From contig NZ_CP093845.1 of assembly GCF_024732245.1 (NCBI RefSeq), positions 124,001 through 188,000 on the forward strand: DNA of 64,000 bases, given 5' to 3'. Numbering within the stretch: the first letter of the stretch is position 1; each line of letters begins with the position of its first letter. The translations under genes were made by a program, and so were the position numbers. Shown here one piece after another: positions 45,174-51,564 of the stretch. This stretch comes from Dietzia sp. B32. GTDB lineage: Bacteria; Actinomycetota; Actinomycetes; Mycobacteriales; Mycobacteriaceae. The notes below the pieces were generated by a model. The model made no database searches and was not told where the DNA came from. It worked only from the letters and a program-made list of their open reading frames with translations.

Positions 45174-45677
45174 TCAGGGGAGAGCCGACGGCACGCGAAG
45201 CCGCGGCTTCAACTGATCCGGAGAGGGTTCGTCGCCCCGCTGGACGGTGGCGATGAGTGCGTCGGCGTGGGAGATCAATCCGGTCGTATCGATCCCGTGA
45301 GGCGCGGGGCCGCTGCCGTGGCCGATACGTTCGGCGGCACGGGCGAGCAAGGACAACGCACCCCTGGTGTTGCCGCGCTGGATATGGGTGATGCCGACCG
45401 CCAGCTGGGCCAGGCCCTGCCAGAGCAGGCGCTCGGCGTCGGGACAGCTCTTCCAGGCTCCCTCGAGAACTTCGTGGGCATTGAACGCGAGGCCGCGGTC
45501 CAGCAGATCCTGCGCCCATTCCAGCGACCGGGCCGGGGGCAGATCGAGATCCTCGGGGATGCGCTCGACACCCACGCTGCCGATCGGCAACGGGCGGCCG
45601 AGTTCATCGCGAGGGCGTGAGTTGCGCGCGCGGCCGTCCTCGTCGCGATCGCGGTCCATGCCGGGTGAGGTGCGCAT
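45174..45677 (-). CDS. DUF309 domain protein
   Basis: 167 aa. The helical core RSLEWAQDLLDRGLAFNAHEVLEGAWKSCPDAERLLWQGLAQLAVGITHIQRGN is the DUF309 family (NAHEVLE...W motif). Residues 1-35 are charged and disordered. Function unknown. Start set at the ATG at 45677; another ATG six codons downstream is possible. It converges with the PNPOx-like gene and is divergent from the alpha/beta hydrolase. Confidence 0.82.
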   Translation of the reverse strand: MRTSPGMDRDRDEDGRARNSRPRDELGRPLPIGSVGVERIPEDLDLPPARSLEWAQDLLDRGLAFNAHEVLEGAWKSCPDAERLLWQGLAQLAVGITHIQRGNTRGALSLLARAAERIGHGSGPAPHGIDTTGLISHADALIATVQRGDEPSPDQLKPRLRVPSALP

Positions 45678-45791
45678 GTCGCCATCGTCCCATCCGTCGT
45701 CGTCAGCCTGCCACCTCGGACCCGGGCGCCGGGACCCGATCGTGACACGTGGCGGGCGACCTTTCCTCCGAGCCCTCCGTAGGCTTGTCCG

Positions 45792-46574
45792 ATGACGCTG
45801 CATCATGTTCGACGCGGGCAGGGTAGCCCTCTACTTCTCGTGCACGGACTCGGCGCGGGGTGGCGATCGTGGGAGCCCATCATCGACGATCTGGCGGGGC
45901 GTCGCGAGGTCATCGCGGTCGACCTACCGGGTTTCGGCGAGTCCCCACCGCTGGAAGGCGAGGTGTCCATAGCGACGTTGGCCGACGCGGTCGAGCGGTT
46001 CATCGAGGAGGCGGGTCTGGAGGGGGTGTCCACGGCCGGACAGTCGATGGGTGGACGGATCGTGCTCGAGTTGGCCCGGCGCGGCGTCGGTGGTGACACC
46101 GTGGCGTTGGACCCCGGCGGATTCTGGAGTGATCGCGAGCTGGCGGTGTTCAGCGCCACCCTGCGGCCGTCGATCGCCCTGGTCAGCGCCTTGCGGGGAG
46201 CGTTGCCGCGCCTCCTGGGCAATCCGGTGGGTCGGACCGCCCTGCTGGCGCAACTCTCTGCGCGGCCATGGGCGCTGTCGGCACAAACGGTGCTGCCCGA
46301 CGTTGCCGGGCTGGCCGACGCACCGGCGACGGGCCCGGCGATGGACGCGCTCACGAAAGGCCCCCCGCAGCAGGGTGCTCCCGCGGGCACGGTCCCGGGA
46401 CGGGTCACCATCGGGTGGGGGCGTCGCGATCTCGTGACACTCCCGGCCCAGGCCCGGCGAGCCGCCCGCGCGTTCCCCGACGCGACACTGCACTGGTTCG
46501 ATCGGTGCGGCCACTTCCCCCAATGGGACGCGCCCCGGGAAGCGAGTTGGCTCATCCTGGACCGGACCAGCTGA
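45792..46574 (+). CDS. Alpha/beta-fold hydrolase
   Basis: 260 aa. The oxyanion motif HGLGAGW (18-24), nucleophile elbow GQSMGG (Ser85) and the C-terminal CGHFPQWD (His about 244) give a complete Ser-His-Asp-type triad. The cap domain lies between about 120 and 200. Small ester or lactone hydrolase of unknown substrate. The ATG at 45792 lies soon after the DUF309 promoter side, with a weak SD. Confidence 0.87.
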   Translation: MTLHHVRRGQGSPLLLVHGLGAGWRSWEPIIDDLAGRREVIAVDLPGFGESPPLEGEVSIATLADAVERFIEEAGLEGVSTAGQSMGGRIVLELARRGVGGDTVALDPGGFWSDRELAVFSATLRPSIALVSALRGALPRLLGNPVGRTALLAQLSARPWALSAQTVLPDVAGLADAPATGPAMDALTKGPPQQGAPAGTVPGRVTIGWGRRDLVTLPAQARRAARAFPDATLHWFDRCGHFPQWDAPREASWLILDRTS

Positions 46575-47278: not shown

Positions 47279-47418
47279 CCACCGCCTCGGCGGGGACAGG
47301 CTCGCGAGCTTCTTAATGGGAAAGTGCGTTATCCGATTCCTCGGGGATCATGAGCTGCCGAACTCGTCGTTGCGCAGTGCCCGTCGTAGCTCGCGGAGTA
47401 TCTGTCTGCGTTGTGTAG

Positions 47419-47928
47419 CTATTTGCCGTGGCCGTTGAGGCTATTGAGGATTTCTTCAGTGGCCGCGTCCGGCGGGAGGGCGACCATCATTTGATCGCCT
47501 TGGAGCTCGCCTTGCACTCGCACAGCGGAGACAATCTCATCGCCGACCTTCATCACGAGTCGAGTTTGGTCTCCAGACTGCGAAGCCTCGACCGTCATTG
47601 TGCGAGCCACGGCTGCTCCGTCGCTGTCGAATGTCACGTTGATCATGTCGGACGCTCCGGAAGGCGGTGCGCCGCTGGCGGAGTCGACGCCTGCGCGCTC
47701 GAACGCGGTGGGGACGACGAGGATGTGTTCGTCATTGATGGGGATGCACTGTGGGTCTGAACCGGGGGCGCATGTCTGGGAGATAGCTAGCTCTAACGCC
47801 CCGGAAGTCGCGCTCATCGCTTCGTCCGCGGTCGGTGGTGCAAATGTTGGTTGCTCCTCGCCCGTGCCGTCGGATGAACAGGCGGTTAGCGCCGCTAGGA
47901 GCGTGATGGCGAGGGCGAGCTTCTTCAT
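47419..47928 (-). CDS. Putative lipoprotein of the low-GC island
   Basis: 169 aa. A type II signal peptide MKKLALAITLLAALTAC ends in a lipobox (LTAC, modified Cys at about 17), followed by an acidic linker and a soluble domain of unknown family. Base composition is clearly lower in GC than in the flanking genes. It follows the recombinase operon on the same strand, 137 bp from its last stop. It may be cargo of the mobile module or an older acquisition. Function unknown. Confidence 0.72.
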   Translation of the reverse strand: MKKLALAITLLAALTACSSDGTGEEQPTFAPPTADEAMSATSGALELAISQTCAPGSDPQCIPINDEHILVVPTAFERAGVDSASGAPPSGASDMINVTFDSDGAAVARTMTVEASQSGDQTRLVMKVGDEIVSAVRVQGELQGDQMMVALPPDAATEEILNSLNGHGK

Positions 47929-48065
47929 GTGGCGATCCGAGGCAACTTTCTGCTGGTGCGGTACTACTTACGGAGGCTGGCCCCTCCTTGGGCACACCCT
48001 ACTCATGTGGAGGGTCGAGAGGTGCCGTATACGGCGTTCGCGATCGCCCTCGGTGATTTGGGCCA

Positions 48066-49175
48066 TCAGGGCTGTTGGTGCTTCAGGGTGGTGTAGTCCG
48101 ACATGGCCGTTCCGGATAGCGCTGCGTGGTGGGAGATAACGGGTCGGGTGTACCCGAGGAGATCGATAAGGCTGCGGGCGTCGACTTCTTGGCATAAGTC
48201 GCGGAAGGTAGCATTTCGGGCCCTTTGGGCGTCGATGCCGAGGAGTCTGAGTCGCTTGTACAGCGTCGCCGGATGGAGGTGCTTACCTGCGATCCGGCCG
48301 GGGAAGAGCCACGGAGTATCAGAATTGGTGGTGTTCTGGTTCCCGGGGTTACGGAGTTGCTGCCAGAACAACTCGGTGAGTGCTTCGGGAATGATTGCGG
48401 GGTAACTGCCGAGGAGGATTCGCATTCCTTCGGGGCTGGCAATGATGCGTTCTCGTCGGAGAGAGACAATTTTGTTCAGCGGCTGGGCCCAGAGCAGGAG
48501 GATGAGGCCGACCACACGAGTAGCCGGGATTACGGTGGTGTCCTCTATGCAGTTTCGGACAAGTTGGATCCGTTCTTCCTGCGTGATCATGGGCATTGAA
48601 TGGGGTGTGCGAAAAGGTACATCTAATGTTCCGTGTTGGTGCCCTTTTTGTCCACTGAGCCATCTGACGAAGTTCCGAATATGTTCGCGGGTGCTGGGCC
48701 CGCCACTGAGGTATTCGTCGACGTGGTGCTGGCGTAGCTCAGTTCCTGGCACGTGGTGGTTTTCGTTCAGCCAGAGGAGAAATTTTCCGGCCTCGGTGAT
48801 GTTCTGTTTCGCCGCCTGGGTGACGGCTACTAGGTCAGAGTCTGGGTCTGCCGCCTGATCGCGGATCCGCCTGAGGTGCTGCCAGGTTGCGTATCGCTCG
48901 ATCAGTTGGCTGGTGCCGTCGTCGGGTAATTCGGCTATTCGATTGGTAAGCCATTTTTCGAATCGTACGAGCGTCTCGTCTCCGCGGGCGGGCATCATGC
49001 GGTGGTGGATGAGCAGGGCGCGGAGATGTTCGACGGATCTAGAGCTAGGTAAGTTGTCGAAGGCCTCGTTGGTCAGTGCAAGCTCGCGGTCACCGATCGC
49101 TTCTAGGAGAGTTCTGGCTTTGGTGCCGCGGCGCATGTATATGTAGATGCTCTGGGGTCGTTCGCTGCTGGTCAA
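48066..49175 (-). CDS. Degenerate tyrosine-recombinase-like protein (second recombinase)
   Basis: 369 aa from a TTG that overlaps the stop of the zinc-ribbon gene by four bases. The catalytic-domain outline is visible: LLLWAQPLNKIVSLRRERI (box I region), TPWLFPGR, HPATLYKRLRLLGID, FRDLCQEVDARSLIDLLGY and DYTTLK. The box I Arg is replaced (PLN, about 232-234), the box II His is absent before Arg325, and LLGH is LLGY; only Arg325 and perhaps Tyr361 remain. It is probably a non-catalytic partner. Similar WLFPGR-containing proteins, often fused to an N-terminal zinc-ribbon part, occur in actinobacteria. Confidence 0.72.
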   Translation of the reverse strand: MTSSERPQSIYIYMRRGTKARTLLEAIGDRELALTNEAFDNLPSSRSVEHLRALLIHHRMMPARGDETLVRFEKWLTNRIAELPDDGTSQLIERYATWQHLRRIRDQAADPDSDLVAVTQAAKQNITEAGKFLLWLNENHHVPGTELRQHHVDEYLSGGPSTREHIRNFVRWLSGQKGHQHGTLDVPFRTPHSMPMITQEERIQLVRNCIEDTTVIPATRVVGLILLLWAQPLNKIVSLRRERIIASPEGMRILLGSYPAIIPEALTELFWQQLRNPGNQNTTNSDTPWLFPGRIAGKHLHPATLYKRLRLLGIDAQRARNATFRDLCQEVDARSLIDLLGYTRPVISHHAALSGTAMSDYTTLKHQQP

Positions 49176-49627
49176 CAGGGTGACGAGTCGTGCAGACGGA
49201 GGTCGTTGCCCGGCTTAAGGACGGATTCGAGCTCATCCTGCAGGGCGCAACGGATGCAAAGCCCAGCGCGGAATCGAGGAGCCTCCCGATGGCAGCGCGT
49301 GCAGGTCAGGGCGGTGGTAATGCCGGCGCAGCCACGGCATATAGGCTGCCGTTCAGGGGAGCGGCCGGGGAGCATGCGGTGCTCACCGCAGCTTGAGCAG
49401 GTGCCGTACGTGTGTGTGGCTTCGGTGAAGCAGGGCCCGCATATGGCGCCGTCGGGCCACCGGACGCGGATCGTCGAGACCTGGTCGTGGCAGCGGTCGC
49501 AGCGGTGCCTCCCAGTCGAGCGGGGCCGTCCGCGCTTTTTGTGGTTGGGTAGCCCGCTCACCGTCGGGGGCCTTGCGGAGCCGTTGCCGCCGGTGGCTGG
49601 CCTACCGGCGGGAGTCATTGTCCTCAT
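49172..49627 (-). CDS. Cysteine-rich zinc-ribbon protein of the recombinase operon
   Basis: 151 aa. Three cysteine clusters follow a basic N-terminus (NHKKRGRPRSTGRHR): CDRC/CGPC, CSSC/CRGC and CTRC/CIRC, each two CxxC pairs, consistent with three zinc ribbons that bind DNA. The end runs LQDELESVLKPGNDLRLHD. It overlaps the Xre gene by 26 bp and the second recombinase by 4 bp. GAGGATGAGGAC suits the ATG at 49618 slightly better than that at 49627. It may be the N-terminal half of a protein split from the downstream gene. Confidence 0.75.
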   Translation of the reverse strand: MRTMTPAGRPATGGNGSARPPTVSGLPNHKKRGRPRSTGRHRCDRCHDQVSTIRVRWPDGAICGPCFTEATHTYGTCSSCGEHRMLPGRSPERQPICRGCAGITTALTCTRCHREAPRFRAGLCIRCALQDELESVLKPGNDLRLHDSSPC

Positions 49628-49958
49628 CCTCGATTATGCGGGCGCGGACTGGTCTGAGGTGGCGCAGATCGGCGACGTCTTCACCGGACGCCACCTGGTG
49701 TTGTCGGCGGGTTCGGGCGTCGGCGGCGGTGTAGGTGATCAGGTCGTTTGGCGTGACATTGAGAGCGTCGCAGAGGGCGACAAGCACCTTGAAAGAGATG
49801 CGCTCGGGCTCTTGAGCGACGATGCGCCAGACAGCGTTGGGGGTGAGGGTGATGCCGCGTTCATGCAGCAGTTCAGCGAGTTCTTTGGCGGAGTGCACGC
49901 CGCGGCGTGCCATGATCTCGCGGACTCGCCAGGTGTAGCTGACCTCTCGTTTACTCAT
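49602..49958 (-). CDS. Xre/Cro-CI-family helix-turn-helix regulator
   Basis: 118 aa. The HTH domain spans about residues 10-75 (AKELAELLHERGITLTPNAVWRIVAQEPERISFKVLVALCDALNVTPNDLI). The tail is charged (RARIIEDEDNDSRR). Overlaps the integrase gene by four bases (ATGA), so it is made with the recombinase and probably represses the operon or acts as an excisionase-like architectural factor. Lower GC than the core genome. Confidence 0.83.
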   Translation of the reverse strand: MSKREVSYTWRVREIMARRGVHSAKELAELLHERGITLTPNAVWRIVAQEPERISFKVLVALCDALNVTPNDLITYTAADARTRRQHQVASGEDVADLRHLRPVRARIIEDEDNDSRR

Positions 49959-51067
49959 GAATTCGTCTCCGATGTGTGATGTCCGACCGCTGCATTGATG
50001 GTGCGGTTGTGTGCACGCTCTAGGGCCAGTCTTTGGTAGTCAGGGGAGGGCAGTGTGTAGATCGAGGTGGTCGCGGCATGTTCGTGTCCTAGTTGGAGCT
50101 GGACAAAGGTCACGTCGTAGCCTTCGCCGGTGACCAGATGGGTTGCGTAGGAGCGGCGAAAGGAATGCAGGTCGAGTCCAGGCGGAAGTCCGAGTTCGTC
50201 GATCAGGGAACGGAGCCGACCGAGCAGTTGCGACGGGCCGACCAGGGCGCCGGTGCTGGTGGGGAAGCAGTCGTTAATCGGGTGGCCATAGCGCGGTAGA
50301 CCTTGACGGATCCATTGGTCGATCATTTCCGCTGACCATGGCCACACGGTCAGCACCGAGCGGACCTTCTTCGCTGAGCCGCGATGCGCCTTTCCCCAGC
50401 GCACGCGGAGAACTCCGTGGTCGCCGAGGTAGGGGGCCCGGCTGTTGCGGGAGAAGTCCACCACCTGAAGATGACGGAGTTCGTTCGACCTAAGCCCCCA
50501 GCTGTAGGCGGTCTTGAACGCGATGGCATCCCGCCAAGCTGCCACGGCGCCTTTACGACCTGACTCAATAATTCGCTCGACCTCGAGGTCTGCCAGGTCG
50601 AAAACACTCTGCAGTTCGTGCTGGGTGAACGGTCGTTTGGCCGGGCGTGCCTCGGTGGGCGCGGAGTGAGTAACGCGGTTGAGTTCGGTCACTACTTGAG
50701 CAAAGACCTGCCCGAACATTCTTGCGCTGAGTTCGGACCAGTCGTAGCGCGGATCGCAGGCGTAGTCGCAGAACAACTTGATCGCGCCCTGGTAGGAGCG
50801 CACAGTGCCATGCGACAAGTTTCGAACCGCGCGGGCGTGCGAGAAATAGTCGTCTGCGTCCGCCAGGGTCCATTCCCACGGATAATGTCCCGAAAAGTCG
50901 ATCAGGCTCATGATGACCCTGCGGCGGGTATCGATTGTGGCCGTGGCGAAATCTTTCGCCTGCTGCTGTCGGGCCCACCCGTCCAGGACGCCTTCCAGGA
51001 AGACGTCCGGATCCGGAGCGCCTTGACCGAAGGTTGCGAATGTGACGTTGTCTTCGTGGTGGGTCAT
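49955..51067 (-). CDS. Tyrosine recombinase/integrase
   Basis: 370 aa. The N-terminal SAM-like core-binding domain is at about 20-125. The catalytic domain retains box I Arg (YSWGLRSNEL), the His-x-x-Arg of box II (LHSFRRSYATHL), the LGHEH His and the Tyr nucleophile (TTSIYTLPS), so it should be active. The ATG at 51067 was chosen (GAGGAC upstream); a GTG at 51151 would extend into the dyad. First gene of a four-gene operon. Product probably integrates or excises the element. Confidence 0.9.
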   Translation of the reverse strand: MTHHEDNVTFATFGQGAPDPDVFLEGVLDGWARQQQAKDFATATIDTRRRVIMSLIDFSGHYPWEWTLADADDYFSHARAVRNLSHGTVRSYQGAIKLFCDYACDPRYDWSELSARMFGQVFAQVVTELNRVTHSAPTEARPAKRPFTQHELQSVFDLADLEVERIIESGRKGAVAAWRDAIAFKTAYSWGLRSNELRHLQVVDFSRNSRAPYLGDHGVLRVRWGKAHRGSAKKVRSVLTVWPWSAEMIDQWIRQGLPRYGHPINDCFPTSTGALVGPSQLLGRLRSLIDELGLPPGLDLHSFRRSYATHLVTGEGYDVTFVQLQLGHEHAATTSIYTLPSPDYQRLALERAHNRTINAAVGHHTSETNS

Positions 51068-51465
51068 TACGACCGTCCTCGAGCCCCGGAAAGTGATTGC
51101 AAGTTTCGCACACTGATTGCGAAAGGCGCAATAGGAGGGTGAGTAACGCACGGTCAGGGGCTATCTGGCTTCGTCCCTTAGGTGGCTGGAACGTACTGCG
51201 CACGCCGCTGCGGGCCGGGACGCCGATAAGGGAAAGGTGCAGGTCACGGGGGAGGCTAAGGAAAGATTGGGGCGTTACCCGAATTCTCGTTATGTGCCGG
51301 AAGCGCAGATACGGTCGATTCGACTTTACATAATGTAGATTATCGGCACTTTGGAAGCGCTGGCCGGGAGGTGGCTCGAGCCGATTCGAACCATCCACTT
51401 CTCGCACGGGTCCGAATAGTCACTGAGGCGGCACCGTGTCGCTCGACAGAGAAAGGTGCGTCATC
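51068..51465. promoter_or_regulatory. 398-bp non-coding region upstream of the recombinase operon
   Basis: AT-rich relative to surroundings. It holds the 37-bp dyad at 51096-51132, GTAACGC (51143-51149) inverted to GCGTTAC (51272-51278), and the dyad TACATAATGTA (51327-51337). These look like recombinase and regulator sites plus promoters for the leftward operon. No protein-coding gene or RNA gene is recognised. Confidence 0.6.
51096..51132. promoter_or_regulatory. 37-bp dyad resembling a tyrosine-recombinase core site
   Basis: Arms ATTGC-N3-TTTCGCA and TGCGAAA-N3-GCAAT (15 bp each) flank the 7-bp spacer CACTGAT. All 12 paired bases in each arm match exactly. Arm length and spacer fit lox/dif/att-type crossover sites. 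It starts 29 bp upstream of the integrase ATG and could alternatively be an operator for the Xre protein. Confidence 0.65.
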
Positions 51466-51564
51466 ATGCGCGGATCGGTCGAGAACGCTTTCATGTTCAT
51501 CCACAACCCTCTCGTGGATCTCTACCAGTGGCTCCTCAGCGTCATCCCGGCGGACATGGCCTGA
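51466..51564 (+). CDS. Small ORF, 32-aa hydrophobic peptide
   Basis: Reads MRGSVENAFMFIHNPL then VDLYQWLLSVIPADMA. The ATG follows AGAAAGG at nine bases and the stop at 51564 is followed within 10 bp by a hairpin, so it may be a real small gene. The peptide is mainly hydrophobic with few charges and could be a membrane-active or porin-like peptide; no family is recognised. It lies at the edge of the low-GC island, divergent from the recombinase. Confidence 0.45.
   Translation: MRGSVENAFMFIHNPLVDLYQWLLSVIPADMA

Follow-up and report, generated by a model that had tools for sequence, protein, structure and literature searches.

Described systems and the locus in Dietzia sp. B32

A three-gene core consisting of a tyrosine recombinase, an XRE regulator and a second recombinase-like gene was named 'XER module' in 2018 on Antarctic Arthrobacter plasmids; all three modules described are inserted in umuDC, variable cargo lies behind the core, and the accessible sections of that description mention neither dif nor a circle, element ends or lineages (PMC6305408). 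The present analysis concerns a 64,000-nucleotide stretch of the Dietzia sp. B32 genome (contig NZ_CP093845.1, positions 124,001 to 188,000; hereafter the window), which holds the same operon core with the second recombinase-like gene split into two open reading frames (ORFs) and a lipoprotein gene as cargo, at the chromosomal dif site. Judged by its sequence, this element is a dif-targeted variant of the XER module. While a first-pass annotation made from the letters of the window alone had suspected an undescribed mobile module, the core has a published name (PMC6305408, as far as accessible); what was not found reported, in a search of open-licence PubMed Central for any tie between XER modules and dif, is the targeting of dif, and that the element abuts dif is also the main point absent from the first-pass annotation.

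The other described systems of relevance are the integrative mobile elements exploiting Xer recombination (IMEX), such as CTXphi, the gonococcal genetic island (GGI) and LME-1, which borrow the Xer recombinases of the host and carry a mimic of dif; as here, dif serves as the integration address and a dif remains afterwards (PMC5357621, PMC9765430, both as far as accessible). In contrast to IMEX as portrayed there, the element in the window has its own recombinase, its border lies outside dif, at the edge of the site, and its far end carries a half-like motif instead of a full dif mimic; it may work somewhat like an IMEX but, by the features tested, is not one.

The element and its borders at dif

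The features of the locus are as follows.

47313-51322, minus strand: whole element, about 4.0 kb, low G + C content, delimited by the dif-side homology break and the shared far-end motif
51323-51350, minus strand: chromosomal dif (AGTGCCGATAATCTACATTATGTAAAGT), intact, the target and not a part of the element, directly upstream of the recombinase gene and flush with the element
49955-51151, minus strand: catalytic, Xer-like tyrosine recombinase (PF00589 match, 3e-14)
49602-49958, minus strand: Xre/Cro-type regulator (HTH_26 match, 2e-13)
49172-49627, minus strand: triple zinc-ribbon part of the partner protein (six CxxC pairs), a separate ORF here and fused to the next part in relatives
48066-49175, minus strand: partner segment that resembles a recombinase but is devoid of catalytic residues (motif alignment)
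47419-47928, minus strand: putative lipoprotein gene, cargo within the element (LPAM_1 E 0.03, below the cut-off of that family), also found in genome G008
47313-47333, minus strand: far-end motif GATAACGCACTTTCCCATTAA, common to Kocuria, Arthrobacter and D. maris elements

The four leftward ORFs, their overlaps of 4, 26 and 4 bp and the low G + C content were all confirmed as first annotated on the minus strand, the G + C fraction of the element being 0.611 compared to 0.703 for the remainder of the window and to a minimum of 0.664 among 260 other 4-kb segments (overlapping, step 200). The true start of the recombinase gene is, judging from relatives, probably near 51073; the R-K-H-R-H-Y active site is conserved in 93-95 of the 95 aligned rows of its family, and the protein is similar to XerC-like and XerD structures.

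A pattern search of the whole genome, a single 3.73-Mb contig, allowing up to two mismatches gave two sites, of which 51323-51350 is the sole exact match. The site agrees with the dif of Frankia alni printed in PMC3025954 (accessible in part). Its 24-bp core GCCGATAATCTACATTATGTAAAG is identical in 11 other genomes of the genus (G004, G008-G013, G016, G017, G019 and G022 in our numbering), the outermost bases differing, and it lies 2.09 and 1.64 Mb away from dnaA, which is located at 2.26 Mb. The arms are taken by us to follow the XerC/XerD layout of E. coli, and with this assignment the element adjoins the XerD-type arm TTATGTAAAGT. The second dif-like site (2,001,015-2,001,037 of the genome, at 8015 of stretch L196) has one mismatch and no module recombinase or partner in the 16 kb around it; it is perhaps a scar or the remnant of an integrated plasmid.

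With respect to the borders, the amidase side of G017 is 92% identical to the window up to 51323, where homology stops, and copies of one element at two different sites part at or beside dif. In G016, some 25-50 bp separate dif from the SRPBCC gene found in the window at the other side of the element, and since the two are nearly adjacent there, the window holds about 4 kb extra between them. At locus L103, the next element begins right behind the far-end motif. As the dif-side break and the far-end motif set both borders, the element comprises 47313-51322, lipoprotein gene included: the borders left unresolved by the first-pass annotation can now be placed, its wider span of 47290-51564 is replaced, and its suggestion that the lipoprotein gene is cargo is borne out.

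A motif like GAA(T)CGGRTAACGC recurs, in one and the same orientation, close to either end of several elements lying, like that in the window, at the XerD-type arm (in the window at 51250-51322 and 47313-47340), and is a candidate arm site of the recombinase or operator for the Xre protein. In G010 (L026), a module-type left end TCTGCGTATTGCATCAGATGAATCA stands beside dif at a contig end, and in G004 (L084, L098) the contig with dif ends 6 bp beyond the core while a separate contig opens with the same left end, so that, by these ends, a module at dif is probable in both genomes. In G013 (C1; L075, L076), 78 kb separate the hydrolase gene from the dif/amidase side, which adjoins it in the window; by sequence this is another large insert or rearrangement at dif; no dif was found at the hydrolase locus of G002 (16 kb). 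A homologue of the lipoprotein gene lies in G013 away from dif (L075: 5863-6397, 75% DNA identity), near a homologue of the gene at 45174-45806 of the window, and no module, dif-like site or far-end motif was found in the stretch around it.

Distribution and position of relatives

In line with the first-pass annotation, which had described similar gene sets and fused versions as recurring in actinobacteria, the set is widespread there, relatives having the core three genes with a fused partner. The partner protein was found in 9 of 23 genomes of the genus, 49 of 296 of the class and 22 of 396 of the phylum (the genome of origin being in each count) as well as in 233 of 72,556 plasmid records. 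The scan of genome contigs gave 142 relatives, of which the best 80 were used, so that near relatives are over-represented, and in 74 of these 80 the module recombinase, whole or in pieces, lies upstream of the partner. A phage origin was considered and rejected: none of 50,697 phage records gave a match at E 1e-5, and no relative was found among viral contigs. A role as a defence system was likewise dismissed, as the PADLOC search gave weak matches of the Xre protein only. A search for further copies in the same genome gave two distant recombinase matches only, and an attachment site of the tRNA type was rejected, as the window contains no tRNA.

Position was assessed in 115 scanned loci, the duplicates L104, L166 and L207 and also L087 being left out, with 20 distant stretches hand-picked and recombinases kept if they covered at least 250 model columns, which removes fragmentary and frameshifted ones. 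Nine of the 110 rows have no partner by the position rule (four without dif, four at contig edges, one stacked), although at least L140, L143 and L199 among the rows set aside do have a partner ORF, and adding them raises the number without dif. This leaves 101 near-full-length recombinases that have a partner, and 68 of them adjoin dif or a dif-like site. Fifty-seven of these, on the D side, have dif upstream in the same orientation, at a distance of 265-335 bp in 55 cases, and 11, on the C side, adjoin the XerC arm with dif in the opposite orientation. The other modules comprise eight at contig edges, three that follow another module in a stack and 22 lacking dif in their vicinity. The dif matrix was built from nine seed sites, whose loci are partly among those counted; minus these and L074, which has the same dif as the window, the counts are 48 (D) and 9 (C). 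In a control scan, a dif matrix score of at least 14 was reached by 48 of 71 rows, with some loci counted twice or more because of split partner ORFs and 11 contig-edge rows unscored, but by just 1 of 710 shuffles; of 830 other windows, 15 reached it, some of these windows containing the dif of a neighbouring module. At nine loci, two divergent modules stand back to back around one dif.

In a tree of 89 recombinases, all 11 C-side rows form one clade (SH-aLRT 99) and 52 of 54 D-side rows group together, joined by seven rows without dif and the three stacked rows, while the remaining 14 of 21 rows without dif are found in a distant part. The D-side rows L122 and L091 fall outside the main D group of this quick tree, which has long branches. 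As C-side and D-side recombinases group apart, the target side follows the lineage of the recombinase. The XER module of plasmid pA2H2 is recognised by the models built here (recombinase E 1.8e-118, partner E 2.2e-69), but it has a partner of 828 amino acids (aa) and a recombinase that belongs to neither the D nor the C group, and it lies between umuD and a Y-family polymerase gene instead of at dif; no dif was found in the two pA2H2 stretches scanned (45 and 20 kb). By sequence, then, the target differs in at least one distant member.

The modules of L138, L140, L141, L143 and L145 (an Actinomycetota metagenome-assembled genome (MAG), Tessaracoccus, an Agrococcus MAG, Kocuria and Gulosibacter) have almost equal model scores and are apparently one recently spread element; L140 and L143 lack a dif just upstream, L140 having a dif-like site more than 5 kb off. 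At L169, a module with dif occurs on a contig labelled as an Acidobacteria MAG, possibly misbinned actinobacterial DNA.

Movement in relatives

The first-pass suggestion of a mobile module holds insofar as mobility is seen in relatives, from which the movement of the copy in the window itself may be deduced. In Paenarthrobacter YJN-5, a 4720-bp element is identical on pYJN5-1 and pYJN5-2, where it stands beside dif-like sites with different centres and amid flanking DNA and genes that differ between the two plasmids. Arthrobacter MA-N2 has two copies of a 3323-bp element, of which the first adjoins a dif-like site and the second (L120) lies where only the right half (ATTATGTCA) exists; the latter copy interrupts an ester-cyclase gene, and its flanks, when rejoined with one TGT, match positions 3-126 of the 126 of SnoaL (E 1.1e-33). 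Between Arthrobacter 68b and Pseudarthrobacter H3Y2-7, identity is 99.1% along 3313 bp that start next to dif and extend to the far-end motif. A block of 3737 bp is 99.95% identical in two genomes named Mycolicibacterium rhodesiae, and one of 5871 bp, which contains a C-side element, is 99.93% identical in a Rhodococcus MAG and G151; in both pairs the common block ends at, and includes, dif.

In P. ureafaciens AT, plasmid pA contains two head-to-tail copies with a period of 4714 bp, and because a dif-like site is found at the first copy only, dif lies outside the repeated unit. The same strain has a 4712-bp circular record, pD, of the element found in the pA tandem, with additional ORFs as cargo; a pattern search found no dif-like site in the pD circle or at the pA tandem junction. 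The short contigs L100 and L168 start and finish at element ends. The empty pA site was searched for in other plasmids, where the right flank was only found diverged (best 80.7%) and the left flank is intact in strain AT5, with other DNA following. Taken as sequence comparisons, these cases show that in relatives the unit has moved, that its borders are fixed and that it is targeted to the outer edge of a single arm of dif, dif being left whole.

In AT5, DNA of the type of plasmid pC joins the pA backbone exactly at the dif-like site of pA, which suggests a plasmid fusion there. Plasmid pC itself (NZ_CP094492.1, L090 and L218; NZ_CP136442.1, L089; with atzC and merA) has its own dif-like site and a 60-bp element end. 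It was considered as a second element type and rejected, as the stretches scanned contain no module genes, and it is not counted as evidence.

The same observations bear on whether host XerC/XerD might integrate the element as a dif mimic, as in IMEX, its own recombinase being incidental. The location at dif and the far-end motif GATAA-N6-TTCCCA, which resembles the left half of dif, speak for this. However, the far ends read show no second full dif and neither do the pD circle and the pA junction, the element begins outside the XerD-type arm and not within the 6-bp centre, an intact recombinase gene lies next to the border, and one insertion adjoins half a dif only; integration by the host enzymes is therefore very unlikely. 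The frequency on plasmids (233 records) would also suit a resident module that does not move and whose recombinase acts on the neighbouring dif-like site to resolve dimers of plasmids or chromosomes. Yet identical modules with sharp borders at different dif centres, a tandem copy without dif, a copy within a gene and modules at chromosomal dif sites are hard to reconcile with such residence, to which we assign a very low probability.

The partner protein

In Kocuria, Paenarthrobacter and G008, a single protein of about 505-520 aa takes the place of the third and fourth ORFs of the window, so that the supposed four-gene operon has to be revised: relatives have three genes, the third of which is split in the window by a change of reading frame, with a possible restart of translation. 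Six CxxC pairs are invariant in 39 aligned fused relatives and therefore indicate three zinc ribbons, as the first-pass annotation had proposed. The positions of Arg I, both His and Tyr, assigned by motif match and not by structure, are lost in 41 of 41 partner rows, whereas Arg II is retained in 39 of 41. PF00589 is matched by one of 39 partner members (3e-5), and neither the zinc-ribbon ORF nor the recombinase-like ORF has a convincing family match in Pfam, NCBIfam, PHROG or PADLOC. By these losses the partner is probably inactive as a recombinase, and since the catalytic residues are kept in the first gene, a recombinase with a full active site would stand beside an inactive partner, a pairing already recognised in the first-pass annotation.

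That annotation had likened this pairing to Tn554. Actinobacterial Tn554-like sets are likewise multi-protein tyrosine-recombinase modules of plasmids and chromosomes, and comprise two recombinases, one of 611-828 aa and the other of about 350 aa, in most cases together with TnpC (PMC3414803, as far as accessible). A Tn554-type transposon would account for several recombinase-like proteins and a fixed target. However, Tn554 has two catalytic tyrosine recombinases and the present module a single one, family searches of the zinc-ribbon part, made without a direct comparison to TnpC, recognised no TnpC-like gene, and the described sets differ from the module in genes, size and number (PMC3414803, same sections); the likeness is not supported, and the chance that the element is a Tn554-type transposon is negligible.

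Points of doubt and the Dietzia copies

Several observations weigh against an autonomous element that targets dif. Twenty-two of the 101 modules have no dif nearby; 14 of them belong to the distant group of the tree, and the others comprise three near a contig start, the second pA copy, the half-dif case and three unexplained ones (L108, L112 and L208). A test for circularity by terminal overlap was negative for all of 20 sequences (including pD itself and, twice, one D. cinnamea contig), leaving the pD record as the only circle, and pD is 2 bp short of the tandem junction, so that it could be a product of assembly. The reading frame at L120 is open both with and without TGT, and the length of the overlap is accordingly deduced from shared ends. 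The profile-profile comparison of partner and recombinase is weak (E 0.02, probability 2.3%). Finally, the partner gene is disrupted in both Dietzia copies, by a split in the window and by a break in G008, the shared position and 85% identity of these two copies look vertical, and there is no empty site from the same species for comparison.

The last points suggest that the Dietzia element may have become domesticated or be decaying at the terminus and no longer move, a possibility compatible with movement in relatives and one to which we give somewhat less than an even chance. The module of G008, another species, stands at the same place as that of the window (G000) with about 85% DNA identity over the locus, and the partner gene, interrupted further down in G008 than in the window, is broken in both, so that both copies may be immobile. 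On the other hand, the two recombinases are intact and 87% alike, and translation could restart at the second part of the partner. The first-pass annotation would have abandoned mobility if all related strains had the operon at one core position with no empty site: the position in G008 is indeed the same, but the module at the dif of G022 is diverged and has different neighbours, and G009, G013, G016 and G017 possess a dif next to which neither a module recombinase nor a partner was found within the 6.5-7.6 kb examined on that side.

Proposed mechanism and implications

On balance we consider it highly probable that the window holds an integrative element of the XER-module type whose own tyrosine recombinase inserts it, probably from a circle, just outside one dif arm. 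The intact recombinase would catalyse cutting and joining, and in the window the element would have been inserted, as in its relatives, immediately outside the XerD-type arm. The 28-bp dif is left complete, for which reason resolution of chromosome dimers should still be possible in the host. The overlap common to both ends appears to be short, about 3 bp in the best pair. The zinc-ribbon/dead-recombinase partner may read the target or help to build the synapse, and the Xre protein may govern expression or direction. Relatives occupy chromosomal dif and plasmid dif-like sites alike and can be stacked in tandem, and the second lineage does the same at the XerC-arm side. Circle, short overlap and variable coupling bases are also known from Tn916-type integrases, from which the fixed target beside dif and the zinc-ribbon partner set the present element apart. 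As dif is strongly selected in bacteria with circular chromosomes, an element beside an undamaged dif would always find a safe home.

A broader proposal, which we put forward tentatively and hold to be possible rather than probable, is that these modules form a new class of dif-side elements with two lineages, each recognising one outer flank so that both can bracket one dif. The dead zinc-ribbon recombinase might read the Xer arm, perhaps docked on bound Xer, and pass it on to the active enzyme; dif-like sites of plasmids might then make up, together with the chromosome terminus, a shared docking network for actinobacterial gene traffic, possibly at a cost to dimer resolution.

While described dif parasites borrow the Xer enzymes of the host (PMC5357621, PMC9765430, as far as accessible), these elements appear to bring their own recombinase and to join outside dif. 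This opens to experiment the reading of half a dif by a recombinase, the role of the non-catalytic partner and the question whether arrays at the terminus affect dimer resolution, and it offers a rule for delimiting unannotated 'recombinase XerD' loci in plasmids of actinobacteria.

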